A stretch of DNA of 64,000 nt from NCBI RefSeq assembly GCF_947581915.1, contig NZ_CANPWG010000046.1, positions 37,679 to 101,678 of the forward strand, written 5' to 3'. Both the position numbers and the translations under genes were made by a program. This document shows positions 13,685 through 63,823 of the stretch, one piece after another. Every line of letters starts with the position of its first letter. The first letter of the stretch is position 1. The notes under the pieces are model-generated. The model worked only from the letters and a program-made list of their open reading frames with translations, had not been told where the DNA came from and ran no database searches. The DNA comes from Candidatus Palauibacter scopulicola (GTDB lineage Bacteria; Gemmatimonadota; Gemmatimonadetes; Palauibacterales; Palauibacteraceae).

Positions 13685-13954
13685 ATGTCACGCATTCACT
13701 TCGTCGTTAAGGAGACCGCGAAGATCCGCTACCAGGCCCAAGCGGAGCGCGAGGGCAAGTCCCTCGGGCAGTGGCTGCGCGACGCGGCCGACGAGAGGCT
13801 GCACGCCGCACGCCCACGCCTCTTCACTCTGGAGGAACTGCGTGAGTTCAACGCCGCGTGCGACGTACGCCAAGCCGGTCGGAAGGAACTCGACTGGCCC
13901 GAATACAAGCGCCTCATCGAGGAGTCCAAGGTCGATGGATTGGAAGTGACATGA
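13685..13954 (+). CDS. Antitoxin of a three-ORF PIN toxin module
   Basis: An 89-residue protein. The N-terminal ~45 residues ('SRIHFVVKETAKIRYQAQAE', 'SLGQWLRDAADERL') look like a ribbon-helix-helix DNA-binding unit. The rest ('RLFTLEELREFNAACDVR', 'ELDWPEYKRLIEESK') is an acidic, tryptophan-containing toxin-neutralising tail. The ATG at 13685 has a near-ideal AGGAAGGAG seven bases upstream; the in-frame ATGs at 13661 and 13667 lack this. Its stop overlaps the start of the mini-ORF (ATGA) and an operator-like array precedes it. Antitoxin assignment rests on fold, size and position before a PIN toxin. Confidence 0.78.
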   Translation: MSRIHFVVKETAKIRYQAQAEREGKSLGQWLRDAADERLHAARPRLFTLEELREFNAACDVRQAGRKELDWPEYKRLIEESKVDGLEVT

Positions 13955-14103
13955 TCGGCCGAGGTCGCTTCACCGTCGAGGAACTGCAGGAGTTCGAAGC
14001 GGCGTGCGATGCGCGGCACCCGCCGGGCGCGCGGGAACTGGATTGGCCCGAGATCAAGCAAATGCTCGCGGAGACCCGGTCTTGTCGGCAGGAGATCGAG
14101 TGA
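13951..14103 (+). CDS. 50-residue duplicate of the antitoxin's toxin-binding tail
   Basis: This small ORF overlaps the antitoxin stop by 4 bases (ATGA) and the toxin start by 4 (GTGA). Its sequence mirrors the antitoxin C-terminus: 'RFTVEELQEFEAACDAR' against 'LFTLEELREFNAACDVR', and 'RELDWPEIKQMLAETR' against 'KELDWPEYKRLIEESK'. It has no DNA-binding domain. It may be a free neutralising peptide that binds the PIN toxin without repressing the operon, or the remnant of an internal duplication. Tight coupling on both sides and an intact frame argue that it is translated. Confidence 0.7.
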   Translation: MIGRGRFTVEELQEFEAACDARHPPGARELDWPEIKQMLAETRSCRQEIE

Positions 14104-14498
14104 TCTTCGTAGACACGAACGTCTTCATGTATCACGTCGGAGGCGAGCACCCACTGCGCGACGAGGCGCGGGAGCTCGTCGCTCGATCGTTGCAGCGTTC
14201 CCAGAGGCTCGTGACCTCCGCGGAGGTGCTCCAGGAGTTGATCCACGTCTACATGCGCTCTGGGAAGACAGAGCCCAACCTCGCGGACGCGTTCACCTTG
14301 GCGCAGAGCTGTCTGGCCGACGTGTGGCCGGTCGAGAGAGCAGATGTCGAGCTAGCCCGCAATCTGTTGGTCCAGCACCCGGAACTTGGGGCGCGAGACC
14401 TCGTTCATCTTTCCTCCTGCATCCGGCGGGAGCCCGACGACCTCATGACGTTCGACCGGGCGCTGGCCGCGGCCTGGCGTTCCCGGTCGCCCCGGTAG
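14100..14498 (+). CDS. PIN-domain toxin (VapC-like)
   Basis: A 132-residue PIN protein starting 'VIFVDTNVFMYHVGG', with the first catalytic Asp in DTN. Others lie in 'SAEVLQELIHVY', 'GARDLVHLSSC' and 'MTFDRAL'. It is expected to be an RNase inhibited by the preceding antitoxin(s). The GTG at 14100 overlaps the mini-ORF stop; the open frame extends 32 codons further, but the PIN fold begins exactly at the GTG. It is followed 25 bases later by a BNR-propeller gene on the same strand, so read-through from the TA promoter is possible. Confidence 0.87.
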   Translation: MIFVDTNVFMYHVGGEHPLRDEARELVARSLQRSQRLVTSAEVLQELIHVYMRSGKTEPNLADAFTLAQSCLADVWPVERADVELARNLLVQHPELGARDLVHLSSCIRREPDDLMTFDRALAAAWRSRSPR

Positions 14499-14523: not shown

Positions 14524-17500
14524 ATGACGGATTCGTCGAGGCGGCAGGCGTTGCGCGTGCGGTTGATGGTCGGTTTGGGCGTCCTGATGGGGCTTACCGG
14601 AGCCTCACTCTCCCGGGCGCCGGAAGTTCGGGCGCAGGAGGTCGATCAGGCGCTGGTGGCGGAAGTCGTCGCCGGCCTCCCCCTGCGCGAGATCGGTCCC
14701 GCGCTGATGGGCGGCCGGATCGCGGACATCGCCGTGCACCCGCACCGGAGCAGCACCTGGTACATCGCGGTCGGCTCCGGCGGGGTGTGGAAGACGACGA
14801 ACGCGGGCGTGACGTGGGACGCGATCTTCGAGGACCAGTCCGTGTACTCGATCGGCGACGTCGCGATCGATCCCGACAACCCCGACGTGATGTGGGTGGG
14901 GACCGGGGAGAACGTGAGCGGGCGCCACGTCGGCTGGGGGGACGGCCTCTACCGCAGCCGCAACGGCGGGGAGACGTGGGAGAACGTCGGCCTCCGGGAC
15001 TCGCAGCACATCGGGAAGATCCTCATCGATCCGCGCGACACCGACGTGATCCTGGTGGCGGCCGAGGGCTCCCTCTGGGCCGCGGGCGGCGACCGGGGCG
15101 TGTACAAGTCCACCGACGGCGGCGACTCGTGGCGGCTCGTGCTGGAGATCGACGAGAACACGGGCGTCACCGACATCGAGTTCGCGCCCGGCAACCCGGA
15201 CATGGTCTACGCAGCGGCGTATGAGCGGCGCCGCAAGATCTGGGGACACCTCGCCGGCGGTCCGAACTCGGGCATCTACAAATCCACCGACGGCGGCGAG
15301 AGCTGGCGCCGGATCACGGCCGGGCTCCCGAGCGGCGACGTGGGCAAGATCGGACTCGCCGTCACGCCGGCGAACCCCGAGGTCGTGTACGCGACCATGG
15401 AGGCGAACGACGAGGAGCGCGGCTTCTACCGGTCCCTCGACAAGGGGGAGAGCTGGGAGCGGCGGAACTCCTACATCTCCGGCGGCACCGGCCCCCACTA
15501 CTACCAGGAGATCGAGGCCTCGCCGCACGACGCGGACGTCGTGTACCAGATGGACGTCTTCATCCAGGTCACGCGGGACGGGGGCGCGACCTTCGGCAAC
15601 CTCGAGACGGCGCGCGACAAGCACAGCGACAACCACGCGCTCTGGATCGACCCGGAGGACGCGCAGCACCTGATCGTCGGCACGGACGCCGGGCTGTACG
15701 AGAGCTTCGACGACGGCCGCACCTTCCGGCACTTCCCGAACATGCCCATCTCGCAGTTCTACAAGCTGACGCTCGACAACGCGGAGCCGTTCTACAACGT
15801 GCTCGGCGGCGCGCAGGACCTCGGCACCCTGTGGGGCCCCGCCCGCACCACGAACATCGAGGGCGTGCGGAACCGGGACTGGTACGTGCCCATGGGGGCG
15901 GACGGCTACGCGGTCCAGATCGATCCGAGGGACCCCGACATCCTCTACCTGCAAACGCAGCAGGGGAACCTCTACCGCTACGACCGGGAGAGCGAGGAAG
16001 CGCTCGACATCCAGGCGCAGCCCGCGCCCGGCGACCCGCCCGAACGCTGGAACTGGGACGCGCCGGTCCTCATCAGCCCGCACAACGCCGACCGCATCTA
16101 CCACGGCTCGCAGCGCGTGTGGGCGAGCGACGACCGCGGCAACTCCTGGACGGCGATCAGCGGCGATCTGACGACGGACGTGAACCGCTACGAGCTGGAG
16201 TTCATGGGCCGCGTATGGAGCGTCGACGACCTCATCGACAACGGCGCCATGTCCAAGTACGCGACCCTCACCGGGATCTCCGAGTCGCCGGTGACGGCGG
16301 GCGTCATCTACACGGGCAGCGACGACGGACTCATTCACGCGACGGAGGACGGCGGGGCGAACTGGCGGCTCGCGAACGCCCTCCCCGGGGTGCCCGAACG
16401 GGCGTTCATCAACGACGTGGAAGCGTCGCAGTTCGACGCGGCGACGGTCTTTGCCGTGGCGGACAACCACAAGGAGGGCGACTTCCGGCCGCTCGTGTTC
16501 GAGAGCAACGACGGGGGCCGGACGTGGCGCTCGATCGCGGGAGATCTGCCGAACGGGACCATCCTGTGGGCGATCGAGCAGGACCACCTGAACCCGAACC
16601 TTCTCTTCCTCGGGGCCGAGTTCGGGATGTACGCGAGCGTGAACGGCGGCGAGAACTGGCACATGCTCCCCGGGCCCACGATCCCGCACCGGGATATCGA
16701 GGTCCAGCGCCGCGACAACGACGTGGTCGGGTCGACCTTCGGCCGCGGCTTCCAGGTGCTGGACGACTACACGCCGCTGCGCGAACTGGCGGGCGGGGAG
16801 AACGCCGCCGTGGCCGCCGCGGACGGCGGGGCGCTGTTCCCGGTTCGCGACGCGTGGTGGTACATCCCCTCGGTCCCGATGCAGGCGCGCGGCAAGCCGA
16901 CGCTGGGGTCGGATGACTACACGGCGCCGAACCCGGACTTCGGCGCCGTGATCTCCTACTACCTGCCCGAGACATCGACGACGATGGCGGCGGCGCGCCG
17001 CGCCGCCGAAGCGGAGGTGCGAGCGGCCGGGGGAGACGTGGCGTTCCCCGGCTACGACGTGCTGAACGAGGAGGCGACGGAGAGCGGCCCCCGGGCGCTA
17101 ATCGCGATCGCCGATGGGGACGGTCGAACCGTGCGCTGGGTGACCGGCCCCGCCAGCCAGGGGCTGCACCGCGTGAGCTGGGACCTGCGGGCTCCCGCGC
17201 CCGATCCCATCGACCTCACGGTCCCCGGCTTCACGCCGCCGTGGGTGGGACCGCCCCAGGGACCCCTCGTCGCCCCGGGCGAATACTCCGCGCAACTCGT
17301 CGTCGTCACGACCGAGGGCGCGCGGGAAGTCGGTCAGGCGCAGACGTTTGAGGTGAAGCCGGTGCCCACGGCCGAGCCCGGCACGGACTTCGTCGCCGTC
17401 GTCGCCTTCCAGCACGAAACGTCGGAGTTGAGCCGCCGCATCGCCTCGGCGGGCGAAGAGGTCGGCCGCGCCCGCGACCGGCTCCGCCACATGCGGGCCG

Positions 17501-17853
17501 CGCTCCTCGAGGCGCCCGCCGCACCGCTGGAACTGTTCGGAGACCTCGATGCGCTGGGCGCCGGCCTGCAGGACTTCTCGATCCGTCTCTTCGGCGACCC
17601 CGCCCGGCAGCGCCTCAACGAGCCCACCGTGCCCTCGATCTCGAACCGCGTGGGACGGGTGATCGGCGGCCACTGGGACACGCGCCAGACGCCGACGGCC
17701 ACCCACCGCCGCAACCTGGAGATCGCCGAGACGGACTTCGGCGTGTGGATGTCGGAGTTCCGGAACTTCATGGACGGCGCCTTCGCCAACGCCGAAAGCG
17801 CGCTCGAAGCCGCCGGCGCACCCTGGACCCCCGGCCGCCGCCTCCCCGGCTAG
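14524..17853 (+). CDS. Large exported BNR/sortilin-type beta-propeller protein
   Basis: An 1109-residue protein with an N-terminal signal (hydrophobic ~11-28, then VRAQE). It has many BNR/Asp-box repeats ('VWKTTNAGVTWD', 'LYRSRNGGETWEN', 'VYKSTDGGDSWR', 'IYKSTDGGESWRR'), indicating one or two multibladed propellers over residues ~50-750. A C-terminal part (~880-1100) has a fibronectin-like strand region and a coiled segment ('ELSRRIASAGEEVGRARDRLRH'). Homologues in Gemmatimonadota and Bacteroidota are annotated as VPS10-domain or glycosyl-hydrolase-like proteins. No glycosidase catalytic set was identified, so binding or scaffolding is as likely as catalysis. The ribosome site AAGGAGAGCAGCG precedes the ATG. 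Confidence 0.82.
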   Translation: MTDSSRRQALRVRLMVGLGVLMGLTGASLSRAPEVRAQEVDQALVAEVVAGLPLREIGPALMGGRIADIAVHPHRSSTWYIAVGSGGVWKTTNAGVTWDAIFEDQSVYSIGDVAIDPDNPDVMWVGTGENVSGRHVGWGDGLYRSRNGGETWENVGLRDSQHIGKILIDPRDTDVILVAAEGSLWAAGGDRGVYKSTDGGDSWRLVLEIDENTGVTDIEFAPGNPDMVYAAAYERRRKIWGHLAGGPNSGIYKSTDGGESWRRITAGLPSGDVGKIGLAVTPANPEVVYATMEANDEERGFYRSLDKGESWERRNSYISGGTGPHYYQEIEASPHDADVVYQMDVFIQVTRDGGATFGNLETARDKHSDNHALWIDPEDAQHLIVGTDAGLYESFDDGRTFRHFPNMPISQFYKLTLDNAEPFYNVLGGAQDLGTLWGPARTTNIEGVRNRDWYVPMGADGYAVQIDPRDPDILYLQTQQGNLYRYDRESEEALDIQAQPAPGDPPERWNWDAPVLISPHNADRIYHGSQRVWASDDRGNSWTAISGDLTTDVNRYELEFMGRVWSVDDLIDNGAMSKYATLTGISESPVTAGVIYTGSDDGLIHATEDGGANWRLANALPGVPERAFINDVEASQFDAATVFAVADNHKEGDFRPLVFESNDGGRTWRSIAGDLPNGTILWAIEQDHLNPNLLFLGAEFGMYASVNGGENWHMLPGPTIPHRDIEVQRRDNDVVGSTFGRGFQVLDDYTPLRELAGGENAAVAAADGGALFPVRDAWWYIPSVPMQARGKPTLGSDDYTAPNPDFGAVISYYLPETSTTMAAARRAAEAEVRAAGGDVAFPGYDVLNEEATESGPRALIAIADGDGRTVRWVTGPASQGLHRVSWDLRAPAPDPIDLTVPGFTPPWVGPPQGPLVAPGEYSAQLVVVTTEGAREVGQAQTFEVKPVPTAEPGTDFVAVVAFQHETSELSRRIASAGEEVGRARDRLRHMRAALLEAPAAPLELFGDLDALGAGLQDFSIRLFGDPARQRLNEPTVPSISNRVGRVIGGHWDTRQTPTATHRRNLEIAETDFGVWMSEFRNFMDGAFANAESALEAAGAPWTPGRRLPG

Positions 17854-17889: not shown

Positions 17890-17949
17890 GTCGTCAGTGG
17901 CCGATGGCGAGGCCGTCCTTGCGGGGGTCCGACGCGCCGGCCCAGCCGC
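17890..17949. repeat. 60-bp direct repeat, distal copy: duplicated 3' end of ggt
   Basis: These 60 bases are identical to 18614-18673, which encode the last codons and stop of gamma-glutamyltransferase on the minus strand. This copy is a gene fragment (final residues 'DPRKDGLAIGH', then TGA) with no gene attached. The two copies flank higBA like the ends of an inserted cassette, 724 bp apart. Identity stops abruptly on both sides. There is no integrase or transposase between them. Confidence 0.9.
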
Positions 17950-17972
17950 TACCTGGGTCTGCTCGCAACTAA

Positions 17973-18003
17973 TAACGCTGGACGTCAATAACGCGTCGCG
18001 TTA
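17973..18003. promoter_or_regulatory. Putative HigA operator
   Basis: TAACGCGTCGCGTTA (17989-18003) is a perfect 15-bp palindrome around a central T. An extra TAACGC half-site lies at 17973-17978. It ends ten bases before the higB start, where HigA-type helix-turn-helix antitoxins normally bind to repress their own operon. The region is AT-richer than its surroundings and probably also contains the promoter. Confidence 0.6.
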
Positions 18004-18012
18004 CTATTCCAG

Positions 18013-18294
18013 GTGATCAAGAGATTCCGCGACCGTGATGCCGAGCGCCTCTTCCAGCGCCGTACCGTTCCGCGACTGGCGCCGGACGTTCAGCGAAGCG
18101 CGCTCCGAAAGCTCAGGATGCTCGACGCGGCCGTTGATCTTGCGGATCTCCGGGTGCCGCCGGGCAATCGGTTGAAGAAACTGAAGGGCGATCGGGCCGA
18201 TCAGTACAGCATTCGCATCAACAAGCAGTGGCGGATCTGTTTCCTCTGGCGCTCCGGAAACGCGTACGACGTCGAGATCGTCGACTACCATTAG
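18013..18294 (+). CDS. higB: HigB/RelE-family mRNA interferase toxin
   Basis: A 93-residue RelE/ParE-fold toxin with the family pattern 'MIKRFRDRDAERLF' at the start, 'RALRKLRMLDAA', 'GNRLKKLKGDRADQYSIRINKQWRICF' and 'VEIVDYH' at the end. HigB cleaves mRNA at the ribosome. It starts at GTG with no strong ribosome site. The toxin-first order with HigA directly downstream is characteristic of higBA. The pair lies between two 60-bp repeats of the ggt 3' end. Confidence 0.92.
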   Translation: MIKRFRDRDAERLFQRRTVPRLAPDVQRSALRKLRMLDAAVDLADLRVPPGNRLKKLKGDRADQYSIRINKQWRICFLWRSGNAYDVEIVDYH

Positions 18295-18303
18295 GTGAGT
18301 GCA

Positions 18304-18594
18304 ATGCCTGAAAAAACGCTCGCGCCGGTTCATCCCGGCGAGGTGCTGCTGGAAGAGTTTCTGGAGCCGATGGGAATCAGTCAGTACCGTCTGGCAAAGG
18401 ACATCGACGTGGCTCCGGGCCGAATCAACCAGATTGTGCATGGAAGGCGTGCGGTCACCGCCAACACCGCCCTGCGGTTGTCCCACTACTTTGGAACATC
18501 GGCGCGATTCTGGCTCAATCTCCAGACAGGTTACGATCTGGACATGGCGAGGGACCTCCCCCTACCAGCGGAAATGCCCCGCGCGGCCGGATAG
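18304..18594 (+). CDS. higA: HigA antitoxin (XRE-type helix-turn-helix)
   Basis: A 96-residue antitoxin. It has 'HPGEVLLEEFLEPMGISQYRLAKDIDV' followed by the recognition helix region 'GRINQIVHGRRAVTANTALRLSHYFG' and 'FWLNLQTGYDLDMA', all diagnostic of HigA. The ATG at 18304 is preceded by TAGGTGAG at a good distance; a GTG at 18295, directly after the higB stop, is the alternative and would add three residues. It represses higBA and neutralises HigB. The gene ends 19 bases before the proximal 60-bp repeat. Confidence 0.93.
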   Translation: MPEKTLAPVHPGEVLLEEFLEPMGISQYRLAKDIDVAPGRINQIVHGRRAVTANTALRLSHYFGTSARFWLNLQTGYDLDMARDLPLPAEMPRAAG

Positions 18595-18613
18595 CCCAAC
18601 GTCACGATTGCGC

Positions 18614-18673
18614 GTCGTCAGTGGCCGATGGCGAGGCCGTCCTTGCGGGGGTCCGACGCGCCGGCCCAGCCGC
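18614..18673. repeat. 60-bp direct repeat, proximal copy within the ggt 3' end
   Basis: This copy contains the ggt stop codon and last ~18 codons on the minus strand, with four bases beyond the stop. It matches 17890-17949 base for base. As the functional gene terminus, it is the likely original; the distal copy is the duplicate. Confidence 0.9.
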
Positions 18674-20330
18674 GCTCCAGCTTCATGACGAGCTGACCGC
18701 CGCCGAACGAGGCGCCCTCCCAGTCCACGAGTTCGTGGCCGAGTGCGCTCATGCCGGCTTCGAGTCCGTCGGTCAGCCGCTCGACCGCCACCCGGAGCCC
18801 GCCCATGTGGCGGAAGCGGGCCGCGTCGATCGCCTGCTGCGGGTCCATCCCGAACTCGATCATGTTGAGCACGACCTGCGTGTGTCCCTGCGGCTGCATC
18901 GACCCGCCCATGACGCCGAACGCCATCAGCGGCTCGCCGTCCCGCGTCACGAACCCGGGGATGAGCGTGTGGAAGGGCCGCTTGCCGGGCGCGACCTGGT
19001 TCGGGTGTCCGTCCTCCAGCGTGAACCCGGCCCCCCGGTTTTGCAGCACGAACCCCGTCCCCGGGACGACGACGCCGGAGCCGAACGAGCCGTAGATGGA
19101 GTGGATGAAGGAGACCATGTTCCCGTAGCGGTCGGCGACCGACAGGTAGATCGTCTCCGTGGCCGTCGCGAACTCGCCGGGCTCGACGCGCTCGGCGGCC
19201 ACGGCCGGGTTGATGAGCGCCCGCCGCGACGCGAGGTAGTCGGGGTCGAGGAGTTGCTTCGGGTCGATCTCCATGTGGTCGGCATCCCCGACGTGCCTGG
19301 CCAGGTCCGCGAAAGCGACCTTCTTCGCCTCGATCAGGTGGTGGAGGTACTCGGGCGAGTTATGCCCCATGCCCGCCAGGTCGAACGGCTCGAGCATGCC
19401 CATCATCTGCAGGGCGGCGACGCCCTGGCCGGCGGGCGGCAGTTCCCAGATGGTCCACCCCTTGTAGTCCATCGACAGCGGCTCGACCCAGCGCACCTCC
19501 ATCGCCGCCATGTCGGCCGGCGTCAGGTAGCCGCCGAGTTCCGCGAGTCCCTCGGCCACCCGCGTGCCCAGCTCACCTCCGTACATGGCGGCCGGGCCTT
19601 CCGCCGCGATCGTGCGCAGGGAACGCGCGAAGTCGGGGTTCCTGAACCACTCGCCCGCTTCGGGTGCCCGCTCGCCGTCGATCAGGTAGGTCGCCGCGGC
19701 TCCCGGGTCCGCCTGCAGCTTGCCAAGCTGCCCCCGCCACTGGCCCGCGATGATCGGGGTGACGGGAAAGCCCTCCTCGGCCAGCGCGATGGCCGGCGCC
19801 ACGAGTTCGGCGAGCGGGCGGCTCCCGTACTTCTCGTTGAGGGCGCCCCAGCCCGCGATCGCTCCCGGCACGGTCACCGCGCCCGGCCCCGAGCCCGGCA
19901 CGCGGTCGTAGCCGTCCGCCCGGATCCGTTCCGGCGTCATGTGGGTCCCCGCGCGGCCCGTCGCGTCCAGGCCGACGAGTCGCCCCTCCTCCGCGGACCA
20001 GAAGAGCGCGAACAGGTCGCCGCCCAGTCCCGTCATGTGCGGCTCGACGAGCGAGAGCACGGACGAGGCCGCGATCGCCGCGTCGAACGCGTTGCCGCCG
20101 TCGCGCAGCACGCCGAGCGCGACGCTCGACGCCATGGGCTGACTCGTCGCGACCATTCCGTTCGGCGCGTAGACGGTGGATCGCCCCGCCATGGACCCCG
20201 GAGCATTCATCGCGGCCTCCTGACTTGACGAGTTTCTCAGGCTCTCCGCATCCGCGGTGCCGCACGCGGCGGCGGTCACGGGGAGGACGGCGAGGACGAG
20301 AGTGGTGGCAACATCGCGCATGCACATCAT
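18618..20330 (-). CDS. ggt: Gamma-glutamyltransferase-family Ntn-hydrolase lipoprotein
   Basis: A 570-residue precursor with a lipoprotein signal (lipobox 'VTAAAC', C23). It is expected to self-cleave at T393 in 'TETIYLSVADRYGNMVSFIHS' into large and small subunits, with T393 the catalytic nucleophile. The 'GGSMQPQGH' and 'NMVSFIHSIYGSFGSG' motifs resemble the YwrD-like branch, so the natural reaction may be gamma-glutamyl hydrolysis or an acylase activity rather than classical glutathione turnover. The first of three close ATGs (20330) has a GGGGGAT ribosome site nine bases upstream; the open frame continues 32 codons further without signal-like sequence. Its 3' end is duplicated beyond higBA. 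Confidence 0.9.
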   Translation of the reverse strand: MMCMRDVATTLVLAVLPVTAAACGTADAESLRNSSSQEAAMNAPGSMAGRSTVYAPNGMVATSQPMASSVALGVLRDGGNAFDAAIAASSVLSLVEPHMTGLGGDLFALFWSAEEGRLVGLDATGRAGTHMTPERIRADGYDRVPGSGPGAVTVPGAIAGWGALNEKYGSRPLAELVAPAIALAEEGFPVTPIIAGQWRGQLGKLQADPGAAATYLIDGERAPEAGEWFRNPDFARSLRTIAAEGPAAMYGGELGTRVAEGLAELGGYLTPADMAAMEVRWVEPLSMDYKGWTIWELPPAGQGVAALQMMGMLEPFDLAGMGHNSPEYLHHLIEAKKVAFADLARHVGDADHMEIDPKQLLDPDYLASRRALINPAVAAERVEPGEFATATETIYLSVADRYGNMVSFIHSIYGSFGSGVVVPGTGFVLQNRGAGFTLEDGHPNQVAPGKRPFHTLIPGFVTRDGEPLMAFGVMGGSMQPQGHTQVVLNMIEFGMDPQQAIDAARFRHMGGLRVAVERLTDGLEAGMSALGHELVDWEGASFGGGQLVMKLERGWAGASDPRKDGLAIGH

Positions 20331-20400
20331 TCGGCTTATCCCCCTGACTGATCCCCCTGAGGGTTGACGGTGGGGCCCGACCCCGGGCGCCGCACGCACA

Positions 20401-21303
20401 CTACGGCCTCCATGCGGCCATGGCATCCCAGCGCGGGTGACGCGTGACGTTCACCGGCTCCGATCCGTCCGCGCCCATCACGTAAATCTCGGAGTTCCCG
20501 TCCCGCTTGGTCGAGAACAGCACGTACTCGCCGTCCGGCGACCAGCGCGGCAGTTCGTCCACTCCGGCGCGTCCCGAGAGGTTGGTCTGGCCGCTGCCAT
20601 CCGCCCGCATCACGTAGATCTCCGCGTCGCCGATGTCCCGGTAGGACGTGAACACGATCCGCGATCCATCCGGCGACCAGGACGGGGAACGCGCGCCGCC
20701 CTCGGCGGGAAGCCGCGTGAGCCCCGTCCCGTCGGCCCCCATCGTCCACAGCGAGAACTGCCGGCCCCCGCCGCGGTCCGAGGCAAAGACGATCCGGGCG
20801 CCGTCGGGCGACCAGTCCGGATCCACGTCGAACGACGACGGGCTCCTGGTGAGGTTGACCGGATTCGATCCGTCCACGTCGATCACCCAGATGTCCGGAT
20901 CCCCGCTGCGCTCGGAGACGAACACTACGCGCTTCCCGTCCGGGGACAGGCGTCCGGACCGGTCATACGCGGTGTCCCGCGTCACCGGCCTCCAGTCCGA
21001 GCCGTCCGCATCCATGACGAAGATGTCGGGGTTACCGTCGAGCCAGCTCGTGAACACGATGCGTGAACCGTCCGGCGTCCAGCTGGGCTCGAGGTTCGTC
21101 TCCCCTTCCGGCGTGAGGGGCCGCTGCCCCGTCCCGTCCGCGTTCGCCACCCAGATGCGCATGAACCTCTCGCGGATCGAGGTGAAGACGATCTCGCCCG
21201 CCGCGGGCGATTCGGGACCCGTGGCGTCTCCGCACCCGAGCGCCACCAGCAGCGCTGCCAGTGACGCGTAGAGGAGCCGGCAGGGCGTCTTCCAGGCGTA
21301 CAT
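20401..21303 (-). CDS. TolB-like beta-propeller lipoprotein
   Basis: A 300-residue lipoprotein (signal ~8-23, lipobox 'VALGC'). It consists of about six WD40-like/PD40 repeats with the recurring pattern 'PxWSPDGxRIVFxSxRDGxxxIYVMxADGS', as in the propeller of TolB. No other domain is visible. Such proteins bind periplasmic partners or surface structures; a specific role is not readable. The ATG at 21303 starts the signal peptide; a 211-codon upstream extension of the frame has no such features. It is divergent from the fusion lipoprotein gene and 70 bases upstream of ggt on the same strand. Confidence 0.83.
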   Translation of the reverse strand: MYAWKTPCRLLYASLAALLVALGCGDATGPESPAAGEIVFTSIRERFMRIWVANADGTGQRPLTPEGETNLEPSWTPDGSRIVFTSWLDGNPDIFVMDADGSDWRPVTRDTAYDRSGRLSPDGKRVVFVSERSGDPDIWVIDVDGSNPVNLTRSPSSFDVDPDWSPDGARIVFASDRGGGRQFSLWTMGADGTGLTRLPAEGGARSPSWSPDGSRIVFTSYRDIGDAEIYVMRADGSGQTNLSGRAGVDELPRWSPDGEYVLFSTKRDGNSEIYVMGADGSEPVNVTRHPRWDAMAAWRP

Positions 21304-60158: not shown

Positions 60159-60530
60159 GTGGAGATCAAGTTCACCACGCGGGAACTCGACCTCATGGCG
60201 GTGCTGTGGGAGAGAGGGGCCTCGACCGTCGCGGAGGTGCAGGAAGGCCTCGGCGACGAGTTGGCCTACACCACCGTGCTCACGATCCTCCGGACGCTGG
60301 AGGAGAAGGGGTACGTGGGGCACACCCAGGAGGGGAAAGCCTACCGCTATCACACGCTCGTGGGGCGCGACTGCGCCGGCGCGAGCGCGGTGCGCCGGCT
60401 GGTTCAGAAGATGTTCCAGGGGTCGCCCGAACTGCTGCTCACGCACCTCGTCTCGGACCGGGCGCTCTCGAAGGAGGACCTCGAGAACCTGCGCGGTCTC
60501 GTCGACGAACGCCTCAGCTCGAAGGAGTAG
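60159..60530 (+). CDS. BlaI/MecI-family transcriptional repressor
   Basis: A 123-residue winged-helix repressor. It has 'FTTRELDLMAVLWERGASTVAEVQEGL', 'AYTTVLTILRTLEEKGYVGHTQEGKAYRYHTLV' and a C-terminal dimerisation helix region. In the classical system the repressor is inactivated by proteolysis triggered by a BlaR1/MecR1 membrane peptidase; the next two genes encode such peptidases. It starts at GTG. Its last codons and stop (GAAGGAGTAG) form the ribosome site of the next gene, giving tight coupling. Confidence 0.9.
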   Translation: MEIKFTTRELDLMAVLWERGASTVAEVQEGLGDELAYTTVLTILRTLEEKGYVGHTQEGKAYRYHTLVGRDCAGASAVRRLVQKMFQGSPELLLTHLVSDRALSKEDLENLRGLVDERLSSKE

Positions 60531-60534
60531 GGAC

Positions 60535-62487
60535 ATGGTCATCGCCTGGATCGGATACTGCCTGTTGATTTCGGGACTCCTCGCCCTGGCGGCCCTCGCC
60601 TCGGAGCGGGCGCTCGGGCACTTCCGGAAGCCCGTGCGCTGGGCGTGGTTCGGTGCGATCGCCGGGTCCGTGACGGTGCCCGTGGTTGCCTTCTTCGCGC
60701 CCGGACTCCTTCCCGGTTTCGGGGTGTCATCCGCCGCCCCGGCGGTCGGGTTGAGCGGCCTGACGGTCGCAACCGCGACGCCGGAAGTGCCCGCAACGGC
60801 CGCGTCGGCCGGTGGAGCTTTCGACGCGGCGGCGGTCGGCACGGTGCTGGGGTGGGGCTGGCTGCTCCTGGCCGCCGCCATGATCGGCTATCTCGGGCGC
60901 ATCTACGGCCGGCTGCGGGCGGAGATGCGGACGTGGAAGCCGGGCCGCGTGGCGGGATCCGCGGTCATGATTTCCGACGAACGGGGGCCGGCCGTCGTCG
61001 GGATCCGGCGCTCGGTCGTCGTCATGCCGAAGTGGATCCCCGAACTCGACGACCGGCTGCTCCGCCTCGTCTTCCTCCATGAGCGCGAGCACCAGCGCGC
61101 CGGCGACCATCGGCTCTTCGCGGCGGCGGTCACCGCGCTCGTCCTGATGCCCTGGAACCCGGTCGTGTGGTGGCAGCTGTCCCGGCTGCGGCTCGCGATC
61201 GAGTTCGACTGCGACCGCCGCGTGCTCGGTCGGGGGGAATCGCGGCGTGACTACGCGGACGCCCTCATCACTGTCGGGAGCCGCGTCTCCGGGCCGCTGC
61301 TCGCCGCGGCCGCCTTCGCCGAACGGAAGCCGGCCGTGGAACGGCGCCTGCGCCGCATGACCGAGCCGCCCGCCAACATGCGTCTGCTCCGAACGCTGGG
61401 CGCCTCGGGGCTGGCCATGGTCGCGGTCCTCTTCGTCCTCGGCTGCCCCGGGCCCGAGAGCGGCGTGAACGCGCCGGAAGCGCCCACCGCGACGGTGACT
61501 CCGCCCTCAGAAGCCAGTGATTGGGTGCCCCCGGTGGTGCCCGGCGAGGACGCCATCGGGCGCGGCGACCGGCCGTCCTTCATCGCGTTCGACAGGCCTC
61601 CGGTGCTTCAGAACGCGACGGAAGTGGGGGACGCGCTGGTGCAAGCCTACCCGCAGAACCTCAAGGAAGCGGGAATCGGCGGGCGGGTCGAGATGTGGCT
61701 CTACGTCGACACGTCCGGCATGGTCCGGAACTCGGAACTCAAGACGAGCAGCGGCAGCGACATCCTGGACGACGCCGCCGCGCGCGTCGTCGCGACGATG
61801 CGCTTCGAGCCCGCGATGAACCGCGACCAGCCGACCGACGTCTGGGTCTCCCAGTGGGTCACCTTCCAGATTGCGGCCGACGCGGACACTCCCCCCGCTC
61901 GTAGCATTTCCGTAGGCGATGAGGGCGCTCCCCTCGTCATCGTCGACGGCGTCATCCAATCCGAGGGCACGAGTCTGGGAGACCTCCAGGCCCTCGATAT
62001 CGACCATGTCGAGATCATCAAGGGTCCGAAGGCCATCGAGTTGTACGGCGAGCGGGCCAGCAACGGCGTGATCGAAATCACGACCAAGGACGGCGCCGCC
62101 GGCAGCGATGCTCCGGTGGATGACCGCCCATCCTTCATATGGAGCCGCATGAGGGAAGGGGCCCCCTCCAGAACGCCACCCCCGACCGACCGGGGCCTCG
62201 AGATCGAAGACATCGTTCGCACGGGGGTCCTCGACGATGCCGACGGGGATCGCCTGCTGGAGGTCCGGATCGTACCCCGCCCGGAGAACATGCCCGATCC
62301 GCTGATCGTCATCGATGGCGTGATTTCCGATGCCACGGGGCTCTCGGAACTCGGTACGCTCGACATCGATCATGTCACGATCGTGAGAGGTGCGCGCGCC
62401 CATGAGACGTACGGAGAGAAGGCCGGACATGGCGTGATCGAAATCACGACAAAAGCGGGTGCGAGGGACAGCGGTTCGAAGGAGTAG
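60535..62487 (+). CDS. BlaR1-like M56 metallopeptidase with TonB-C and two plug-like domains
   Basis: A 650-residue membrane sensor. Membrane helices lie at ~5-22, 36-55 and 105-122. The zinc motif HEREH is at 182-186 ('FLHEREHQRAGDHR') and a last helix is near 280-300. The extracytoplasmic part has a TonB C-terminal-type domain ('GIGGRVEMWLYVDTSGMVRNSELKTSSG'). Two copies of a short TonB-receptor-plug-like unit follow ('PLVIVDGVIQ...LDIDHVEIIKGPKAIELYG' and 'PLIVIDGVIS...LDIDHVTIVRGARAHETYG'). There is no penicillin-binding sensor domain, so the signal is unlikely to be a beta-lactam bound in BlaR1 fashion. It follows blaI by four bases. Confidence 0.85.
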   Translation: MVIAWIGYCLLISGLLALAALASERALGHFRKPVRWAWFGAIAGSVTVPVVAFFAPGLLPGFGVSSAAPAVGLSGLTVATATPEVPATAASAGGAFDAAAVGTVLGWGWLLLAAAMIGYLGRIYGRLRAEMRTWKPGRVAGSAVMISDERGPAVVGIRRSVVVMPKWIPELDDRLLRLVFLHEREHQRAGDHRLFAAAVTALVLMPWNPVVWWQLSRLRLAIEFDCDRRVLGRGESRRDYADALITVGSRVSGPLLAAAAFAERKPAVERRLRRMTEPPANMRLLRTLGASGLAMVAVLFVLGCPGPESGVNAPEAPTATVTPPSEASDWVPPVVPGEDAIGRGDRPSFIAFDRPPVLQNATEVGDALVQAYPQNLKEAGIGGRVEMWLYVDTSGMVRNSELKTSSGSDILDDAAARVVATMRFEPAMNRDQPTDVWVSQWVTFQIAADADTPPARSISVGDEGAPLVIVDGVIQSEGTSLGDLQALDIDHVEIIKGPKAIELYGERASNGVIEITTKDGAAGSDAPVDDRPSFIWSRMREGAPSRTPPPTDRGLEIEDIVRTGVLDDADGDRLLEVRIVPRPENMPDPLIVIDGVISDATGLSELGTLDIDHVTIVRGARAHETYGEKAGHGVIEITTKAGARDSGSKE

Positions 62488-62491
62488 CGAC

Positions 62492-63823
62492 ATGGTCATC
62501 GTTTGGATCGGATACTGCCTGCTGATTTCGGGACTCCTCGCCCTGGCCGCCTTCGCGACCGAGCGGGCGCTGGGTCACTTCCGGAAGCCGGTGCGCTGGG
62601 GCTGGTTCGCGGCGGTCGTCGGCTCGGTGGCGCTCCCGTTTGCGGCGTTACTCGCTCCCGGCCTCCTCCCGGGCCTCGGCGCGTCGCCGTGGGCTCCTCT
62701 CGTGGAGTTGAGTGAAGCGGTCGTCGTGGCCTCCGCGCCGGCCGCGCCCGGGGCGGCGGAATCCACGGCGTGGTTCGGCACCGGCGCGCTTAGCGTGTTC
62801 GCGGGCGGGGTCTGGGCCTTGCTCGTGGCGGGGATGCTCTTCCACCTCGGGCGGGCGTACCGGCGCCTGCGGCTGGAGATGCGCACGTGGACGCCGGGTC
62901 GCGTCCTCGGATCGCCGGTCTTGATCGCGGACGGCCGGGGCCCCGCCGTGGTCGGAATCCGACGCCCCGTCGTCGTGATGCCGAGGTGGATCCCCGAACT
63001 CGACGACCGGCTGTTGCGCCTGGTCTTCCTGCACGAGCGCGAACACCAGCGCGCTGGCGACCACCGTCTGTTCGCCGTGGCCGTCGCGGCCCTCGTGCTG
63101 ATGCCGTGGAACCTCTTCCTGTGGTGGCAGGTGTCCCGGCTGCGGTTGGCAATCGAGTTCGACTGCGACCGCCGCGTCCTGGAGCGGGGCGAGTCCCCGC
63201 GCGACTACGCGGACGCACTCATCACGGTGGGTGGCCGTGTCTCCGCGCCCCTGCTGGCCGCGGCCGCCTTCGCCGAGCGCAAGCCGGCCGTGGAACAGCG
63301 GCTGCGCCGCATGACCGAACCGCTGGCCCGGCTCCGCATTCCGAGAACGCTGGGAGCTACGGGCGTGGCGGCGCTCGCCATCATCCTCGTCCTGGGCACC
63401 CCCCAGCCCGAGGCGCCAATGGATGCGCCCGCGCCCGCGGCCGATGCCGCCCCGGGTCACGAGGTCGAAGGGAACCAGCTGGTCCGCCCGGACGAGGGAG
63501 CCGCGCCGGCCGAGCGGCCGACCTTCGTCGCGTACGACACGCCCCCGGTTATGCAGAATGTTGGCGAGATCCAGCAGATACTCGAGAGAGCCTATCCGCT
63601 GAATCTGAAGAATGCGGGCATCGGCGGCCGGGTCGAGATGTGGCTGTACGTCGACCTGTCCGGCGCCGTGGTCAACCAGGAGATCAAGACGAGCAGCGGC
63701 AACGACACGCTGGACCAGGCCGCCATGGAAGTCGCCGCGCAAATGCGGTTCCGCCCCGCGAGCAACCGGGGTGAACCCACCGCCGTCTGGGTCTCCCAGT
63801 GGGTGACCTTCCGGGTGATCTAA
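62492..63823 (+). CDS. Second BlaR1-like M56 metallopeptidase with TonB-C domain
   Basis: A 443-residue paralogue of the preceding protein, with the same helix layout, 'FLHEREHQRAGDHR' zinc motif, 'RLAIEFDCDRRVLERGES' and TonB-C-type end ('GIGGRVEMWLYVDLSGAVVNQEIKTSSGND'). It stops right after that domain and lacks the plug-like units. Sequence is near-identical around the start and catalytic region, showing a tandem duplication. The ATG at 62492 has GAAGGAG upstream, again made from the end and stop of the preceding gene. Confidence 0.88.
   Translation: MVIVWIGYCLLISGLLALAAFATERALGHFRKPVRWGWFAAVVGSVALPFAALLAPGLLPGLGASPWAPLVELSEAVVVASAPAAPGAAESTAWFGTGALSVFAGGVWALLVAGMLFHLGRAYRRLRLEMRTWTPGRVLGSPVLIADGRGPAVVGIRRPVVVMPRWIPELDDRLLRLVFLHEREHQRAGDHRLFAVAVAALVLMPWNLFLWWQVSRLRLAIEFDCDRRVLERGESPRDYADALITVGGRVSAPLLAAAAFAERKPAVEQRLRRMTEPLARLRIPRTLGATGVAALAIILVLGTPQPEAPMDAPAPAADAAPGHEVEGNQLVRPDEGAAPAERPTFVAYDTPPVMQNVGEIQQILERAYPLNLKNAGIGGRVEMWLYVDLSGAVVNQEIKTSSGNDTLDQAAMEVAAQMRFRPASNRGEPTAVWVSQWVTFRVI

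Follow-up and report, generated by a model that had tools for sequence, protein, structure and literature searches.

Sequence comparison across one bacterial genus supports the insertion, at the 3' end of the gamma-glutamyltransferase gene ggt, of a small unit that encodes a predicted HigBA toxin–antitoxin pair and now lies between 60-bp direct repeats of that gene end. We consider it rather probable that higBA entered by recombination of incoming ggt sequence with the resident ggt and with no recombinase of its own, an entry route that we infer from the arrangement of the flanks. The locus lies within the 64,000-nucleotide stretch of DNA that was analysed (hereafter, the window), which belongs to contig C46 of G000, a draft genome in 79 contigs; the other genomes compared are designated G001, G002 and so forth. 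G000 is likely a member of the phylum Gemmatimonadota, since contigs of G029 and G031, two relatives placed in its family, include stretches of the Gemmatimonadota records JAUVPT010000114 and JAMJQV010000148, respectively, without a single difference. Its features, in coordinates of the window, are as follows.

14524..17853, plus strand: gene for a BNR/Sortilin-Vps10 repeat protein, the left neighbour, convergent with ggt (Pfam PF15902, PF02012)
17890..17949, minus strand: left repeat, an orphan duplicate of the final 60 bp of ggt, 100% identical to 18614–18673 and set in the left context of the empty sites described below
17970..18009, plus strand: higBA promoter/operator-like block (TAATAACGC...GCGTTACTATTC); by eye, a similar block stands upstream of higB in most of 27 related units
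18013..18294, plus strand: higB, predicted RelE/HigB-like toxin, 93 aa (PF05015, E 8.5e-20, 71.5 bits, cut-off 27; PDB 6f8s_B, E 7.6e-27)
18295..18594, plus strand: higA, predicted antitoxin, 99 aa (TIGR02607, E 8e-34, 115.3 bits, cut-off 47.7; PF01381)
18595..18613, plus strand: right spacer of 19 bp from the higA stop to the right repeat; compared with the left copy's flank, the 16 bases preceding the right copy are different at 13/16 positions
18614..18673, minus strand: right repeat, the true ggt 3' end plus 4 bp past the stop
18618..20426, minus strand: ggt, gamma-glutamyltransferase (PF01019, E 3.4e-148; TIGR00066, 379.7 bits, cut-off 357.85)

The two repeats are direct, match at 60/60 positions and lie 724 bp apart, and outside both copies similarity is lost at once, the adjoining 100 bp showing an ungapped identity of 0.30 on the left and 0.29 on the right. 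Because ggt terminates within the right copy, the left copy is the orphan. The pair is the sole exact direct repeat of at least 30 bp (spacing 300–8000 bp) within the window, where the remaining repeats listed are only 72–78% alike; tandem paralogous segments at 60519–63812, for example, are 74–78% alike at a spacing of ~1.95 kb. A scan of 1.48 Mb of G000 in overlapping stretches, at most 41% of its 3.62 Mb, returned 29 exact repeats (at least 30 bp, spacing 250–8000 bp), among which only the ggt-end pair and an 85-bp pair at a tRNA-Ile gene combine a length of at least 40 bp with unlike flanks on both sides. The copies of this 85-bp exact direct repeat (L206:535–957, contig C7 of G000) are 338 bp apart; the right one overlaps the tRNA-Ile gene (898–973), and ARAGORN found no tRNA gene in the left one. 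Segment 17880–17960, searched against the whole G000 genome (E 0.001), has a single 21-bp match beyond the two ggt-end copies.

The interval between the repeats measures 664 bp (17950–18613); within it, 20 bases precede the operator-like block and 19 follow higA. The order of its two genes, a HigB-like toxin upstream of the HTH antitoxin HigA (PF05015, TIGR02607, PF01381), is the layout of HigBA type II toxin–antitoxin systems, and HigB and HigA have relatives of solved structure (6f8s and others). The higA start is GTG, with an ATG at 18304 as a possible alternative, and the block at 17970–18009 is a putative operator. Two other overlapping frames in the insert have no Pfam match; HigB and HigA alone were recognised, and the insert has no integrase gene of its own. 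The initial annotation had described this locus as an insert of ~0.66 kb carrying a toxin–antitoxin pair and its operator with no recombinase, bounded by identical 60-bp repeats that diverge directly on both sides, with the inner copy as the true ggt terminus and the outer one as an orphan, and this observation is confirmed, the operator being a putative one. Just before the BNR gene, window positions 13858–14498 hold a gene for a PIN-domain protein (PF01850, 14004–14498) and a small overlapping upstream frame for which no Pfam match was found; together these are a possible VapBC-like pair.

The BNR–ggt junction was searched for in 100 genomes including G000, of which 16 others belong to the same genus, and it was readable in 11 of these 17 genus members (G000 included). 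The six unread cases comprise G008 and G016, in which the BNR match runs to a contig end, and G003, G005, G012 and G013, which gave no joined match. At six of the 11 readable junctions (G002, G006, G007, G009, G010 and G014), the site is empty: a single 60-mer lies between the BNR gene and ggt, with both genes on one contig. The gap is filled in the other five (G000, G001, G004, G011 and G015). When the 724 bp are removed from G000, the remaining sequence aligns with all six empty sites without a gap over the 60-mer and the next 100 bp of ggt, and the 60-mer itself shows 0–4 mismatches. The orphan copy is preceded by 16 bases that show 0–1 difference from all six empty sites and none from the left copy of G011, whereas the 16 bases leading up to the right copy in G000, G011, G004 and G015 show 10–13 differences (G000: 13/16). 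By this comparison of flanks, the orphan occupies the old position and the ggt-joined copy has acquired a new left neighbour. Insertion is thus supported by the six exact empty sites together with an orphan that retains the left neighbour of the empty site and a ggt-joined copy that does not. The search of relatives for an empty site, which the initial annotation had put forward as the proof of insertion, thereby returned six congeners with a single 60-mer. Among the other occupied congeners, none has a flank that clearly matches the right flank of G000. The bases TAGCCCAACGTC (window 18592–18603, from the higA stop) are also those that run from the BNR stop onward in the empty site of G006, a match that may be a mark of the right junction or may be chance.

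A second filled site is found in G011, in which the order is BNR gene, 60-mer, higBA, a further gene of 776 codons and ggt. The higBA units of G011 and G000 share 95% identity, and the left junction common to the two genomes aligns through, with 0/16 flank differences. The repeats of G011 differ at 6/60 positions, against 0/60 in G000. Since a second species thus has the junction with drifted repeats, the insert is real and not brand new, and the identity of the repeats in G000 likely reflects later homogenisation. The initial annotation had regarded diverging repeats without any empty site among relatives as evidence against an insertion; the repeats have indeed diverged in G011, but empty sites exist. 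Synonymous divergence between G000 and G011 is 0.113 for higBA, lower than the 0.219 of ggt and the 0.246 of the BNR gene (Fisher p 0.02 and 0.009, respectively, from 15 changes and two tests), as if higBA had been exchanged after the two lineages split, although the low value could instead be due to constraint. The number of insertion events is uncertain, because trees do not join G000 and G011 as sisters with support.

The other filled gaps have varied contents. That of G001 holds ~5 kb with genes for an Eco57I-type methylase, a BsuBI/PstI-type endonuclease, an HTH regulator and an IrrE-like peptidase (L036, G001:C25:3500–13500, minus strand); this insert has an entry point different from that of G000, and the ggt end of G001 retains an empty-type flank. 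In G004 the gap contains the further gene together with higA and, by eye, the final codons of higB, and in G015 the further gene with remnants of higB (by tblastn) and of the higA end (by eye). The 776-aa product of the further gene (G011 L038:1350–3677, minus strand; also L037 and L039) looks HEAT-like by eye and has no Pfam match. Among 35 genomes of the family it is present at length in three (G004, G011 and G015), and there only at the BNR–ggt gap; in G004, the matches to it are split over two overlapping frames. Additionally, a 341-bp segment beside the insert (17420–17760) is identical in G000 and G010; the 613 bp on its left contain 51 substitutions and the 90 bp on its right contain 4. 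This segment is likely a recent recombination tract, and would indicate homologous exchange at this spot.

Beyond the genus, a stretch related to higBA was found in 132 of 394 genomes of the class (G000 included). In 27 units viewed by eye, higB and higA recur, mostly with the operator-like block, and the flanks look unrelated. A survey for bracketing repeats covered 93 of 104 higBA loci, the others having no HigA match or less than 400 bp on a side, and an exact bracketing repeat of more than 40 bp was found in 0/93. Exact bracketing repeats of at least 20 bp occur at 8/93 units compared with 68/1860 control placements, a slight excess, and those of at least 30 bp at 3/93 compared with 32/1860. 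The longest measures 40 bp (L152), and the repeats at L180, L159, L151 and L199 look attC-like (L159) or resemble intergenic repeats. A flanking duplication in the manner of the ggt locus is therefore not habitual for higBA. Matches to HigB occur at four places in the G000 genome. The higBA units on C17 and C10 have no long flanking repeat, and that on C71 (L035:1–1250), considered as a parallel, was set aside as uninformative: on its flanks stand diverged pieces of a coiled-coil-like gene end, many copies of which are dispersed over the genus. The initial annotation had proposed a search of the genome for further higBA units flanked by repeats of a neighbouring gene end, and none was found apart from this uninformative unit on C71. 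By eye, higBA units of the same family lie between attC-like repeats in G020, G375 and G096 (L069, L094, L100), as in integron cassettes; the higBA family may have integrons among its carriers, though not visibly so at the ggt locus.

For recombination between incoming and resident ggt, which we favour, the incoming molecule would have carried higBA beside a ggt 3' end. Either a single crossover in the ggt end would have integrated a whole circle, or a linear piece would have crossed over in ggt while its other side was joined illegitimately ~60 bp inside the gene; by either route, the resident ggt end would keep its original surroundings on the left, and the incoming end would come to lie on the right. 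Subsequent recombination between the copies would keep them identical in G000 and could restore the empty site exactly, and the predicted toxin would put cells that lose the insert at a disadvantage. The flank pattern observed, old on the left and new on the right, is as expected if a circle integrated at ggt or if a single side crossed over there. In Escherichia coli, single-crossover integration of a circle is described as duplicating the homologous end, over 109–950 bp in 14 sequenced clones, and as the unexpected majority class (56/60 clones by PCR) (PMC3240628). According to the same source, homology-facilitated illegitimate recombination generally leaves deletions rather than duplications, which counts against our preferred reading. 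Outside the genus, no donor was identified in which higBA already adjoins a matching ggt end. In another genus, a ggt-family gene (28% identical) and a related higBA are arranged tail to tail, with 16 bp between higBA and the gene end (L070:2899–5044, G029:C174); considered as a donor, this unit was rejected on its flanks, which are unlike by eye.

The flanks alone do not separate the models, because transposition with duplication of a long target leaves nearly the same flanks. Such a transposition-like insertion, as proposed for restriction–modification genes of Helicobacter, would need no incoming ggt homology; the published cases as described show the same outcome, with addiction genes alone between ~100-bp repeats and no carrier element (PMC1643837, PMC3874152), and a restriction–modification system occupies the same gap in G001. 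The G001 insert nevertheless lies at a different point, its 10-kb stretch contains no exact repeat of at least 25 bp, and the absence of exact flanking repeats of more than 40 bp from all 93 other higBA units suggests that higBA does not usually insert in this way; we hold such an event at ggt to be unlikely. It is also quite unlikely that a tandem duplication produced a second ggt with linked higBA, followed by deletion of all but the last 60 bp of one ggt. This history, too, would account for an orphan gene end in its original surroundings, and the rearranged, truncated higBA with another gene in the gaps of G004, G011 and G015 fits it; yet it requires more steps, two ggt copies around higBA are found at 0/11 readable loci, and the copies in G000 are identical while their flanks differ. 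An artefact of assembly, conceivable in a draft of 79 contigs and a concern raised by the initial annotation, is extremely unlikely given that the left junction recurs, with repeats that have diverged, in the separate assembly G011.

A further explanation is that a recombinase working in trans, whether a tyrosine integrase, the XerCD enzymes acting on a dif module or an integron integrase, integrated the unit site-specifically at the 3' end of ggt. It has in its favour the classic picture of integration, in which a gene 3' end serves as the target and is regenerated between direct repeats, and five tyrosine recombinases are encoded elsewhere in the G000 genome. Toxin–antitoxin dif modules of 696 bp are, furthermore, described in Acinetobacter plasmids (PMC9455709). 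Several observations at the ggt locus stand against this explanation, which we regard as very unlikely. Scanned with the 28-base dif consensus, the ends of the insert give a best match of 14/28 against shuffle deciles of 13–16, that is, at shuffle level, and terminal inverted repeats likewise reach shuffle level only. No attC pair of the form RYYYAAC...GTTRRRY was found at the insert, in a weak scan that also missed the sites seen by eye near higBA in L069. Searches for PF00589 and PF00239, the two families covered, found no tyrosine recombinase on contig C46 and no serine resolvase in the G000 genome, and the G001 insert has another edge. The mobile unit moved in trans that the initial annotation suggested is accordingly unsupported as the work of a site-specific recombinase; its alternative, a scar of homologous recombination, is the reading we favour.

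A more far-reaching proposal, which we consider quite doubtful, is that a duplicated host gene end serves the toxin–antitoxin operon as attachment site, so that the operon moves between species without an enzyme of its own. Host homologous recombination would free a 724-bp circle that would re-insert into any ggt, and the toxin would punish loss. Identical repeats in G000, drifted repeats in G011 and a higBA divergence below that of its flanks would be expected of such recurrent exchange.

These observations bear on the open question of how small toxin–antitoxin operons spread without carriers; a review describes the fixation of acquired toxin–antitoxin systems in a population as not yet understood (PMC2654758). 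The locus offers a clean case, with empty, filled and drifted filled sites in one genus and a restriction–modification system in the same gap of another species, and this series makes models of mechanism testable by sequence. Among the matches listed in the open-access literature, there was no toxin–antitoxin system with a long target duplication or flanking repeats.

Several known systems resemble the ggt locus in part. As in the circle integration described in E. coli (PMC3240628), a homologous gene end is duplicated beside the insert, although the E. coli events involved an experimental plasmid and 109–950 bp, while the present case is natural and involves 60 bp. The dif modules of Acinetobacter (PMC9455709) are likewise units of ~0.7 kb with toxin–antitoxin genes and are described as moved by host enzymes, as would also hold for the ggt insert; they are, however, bounded by XerC/XerD sites, which are unrecognisable at the ggt locus. 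The higBA integron cassettes contain the same operon family, whereas the weak scan found no attC pair here. A PabI-type restriction–modification insertion is described as having replaced 4 bp, without a long repeat (PMC4615327). Another close parallel is the insertion of restriction–modification genes with long target duplication in Helicobacter (Nobusato et al. 2000, as cited in PMC1643837 and PMC3874152), although in these sources the label names a pattern and not a settled mechanism. As in the Helicobacter case as described there, addiction genes alone are inserted relative to a related genome, between long direct repeats of the target; no carrier element is described there, and none was seen at the ggt locus in the families searched. 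The duplication here measures 60 bp, compared with the order of 100 bp in the known pattern, and is present as a single copy in the empty sites. Unlike the Helicobacter case, the repeat is the 3' end of a gene, a second species keeps a drifted version, and the cargo is a type II toxin–antitoxin operon rather than a restriction–modification system.
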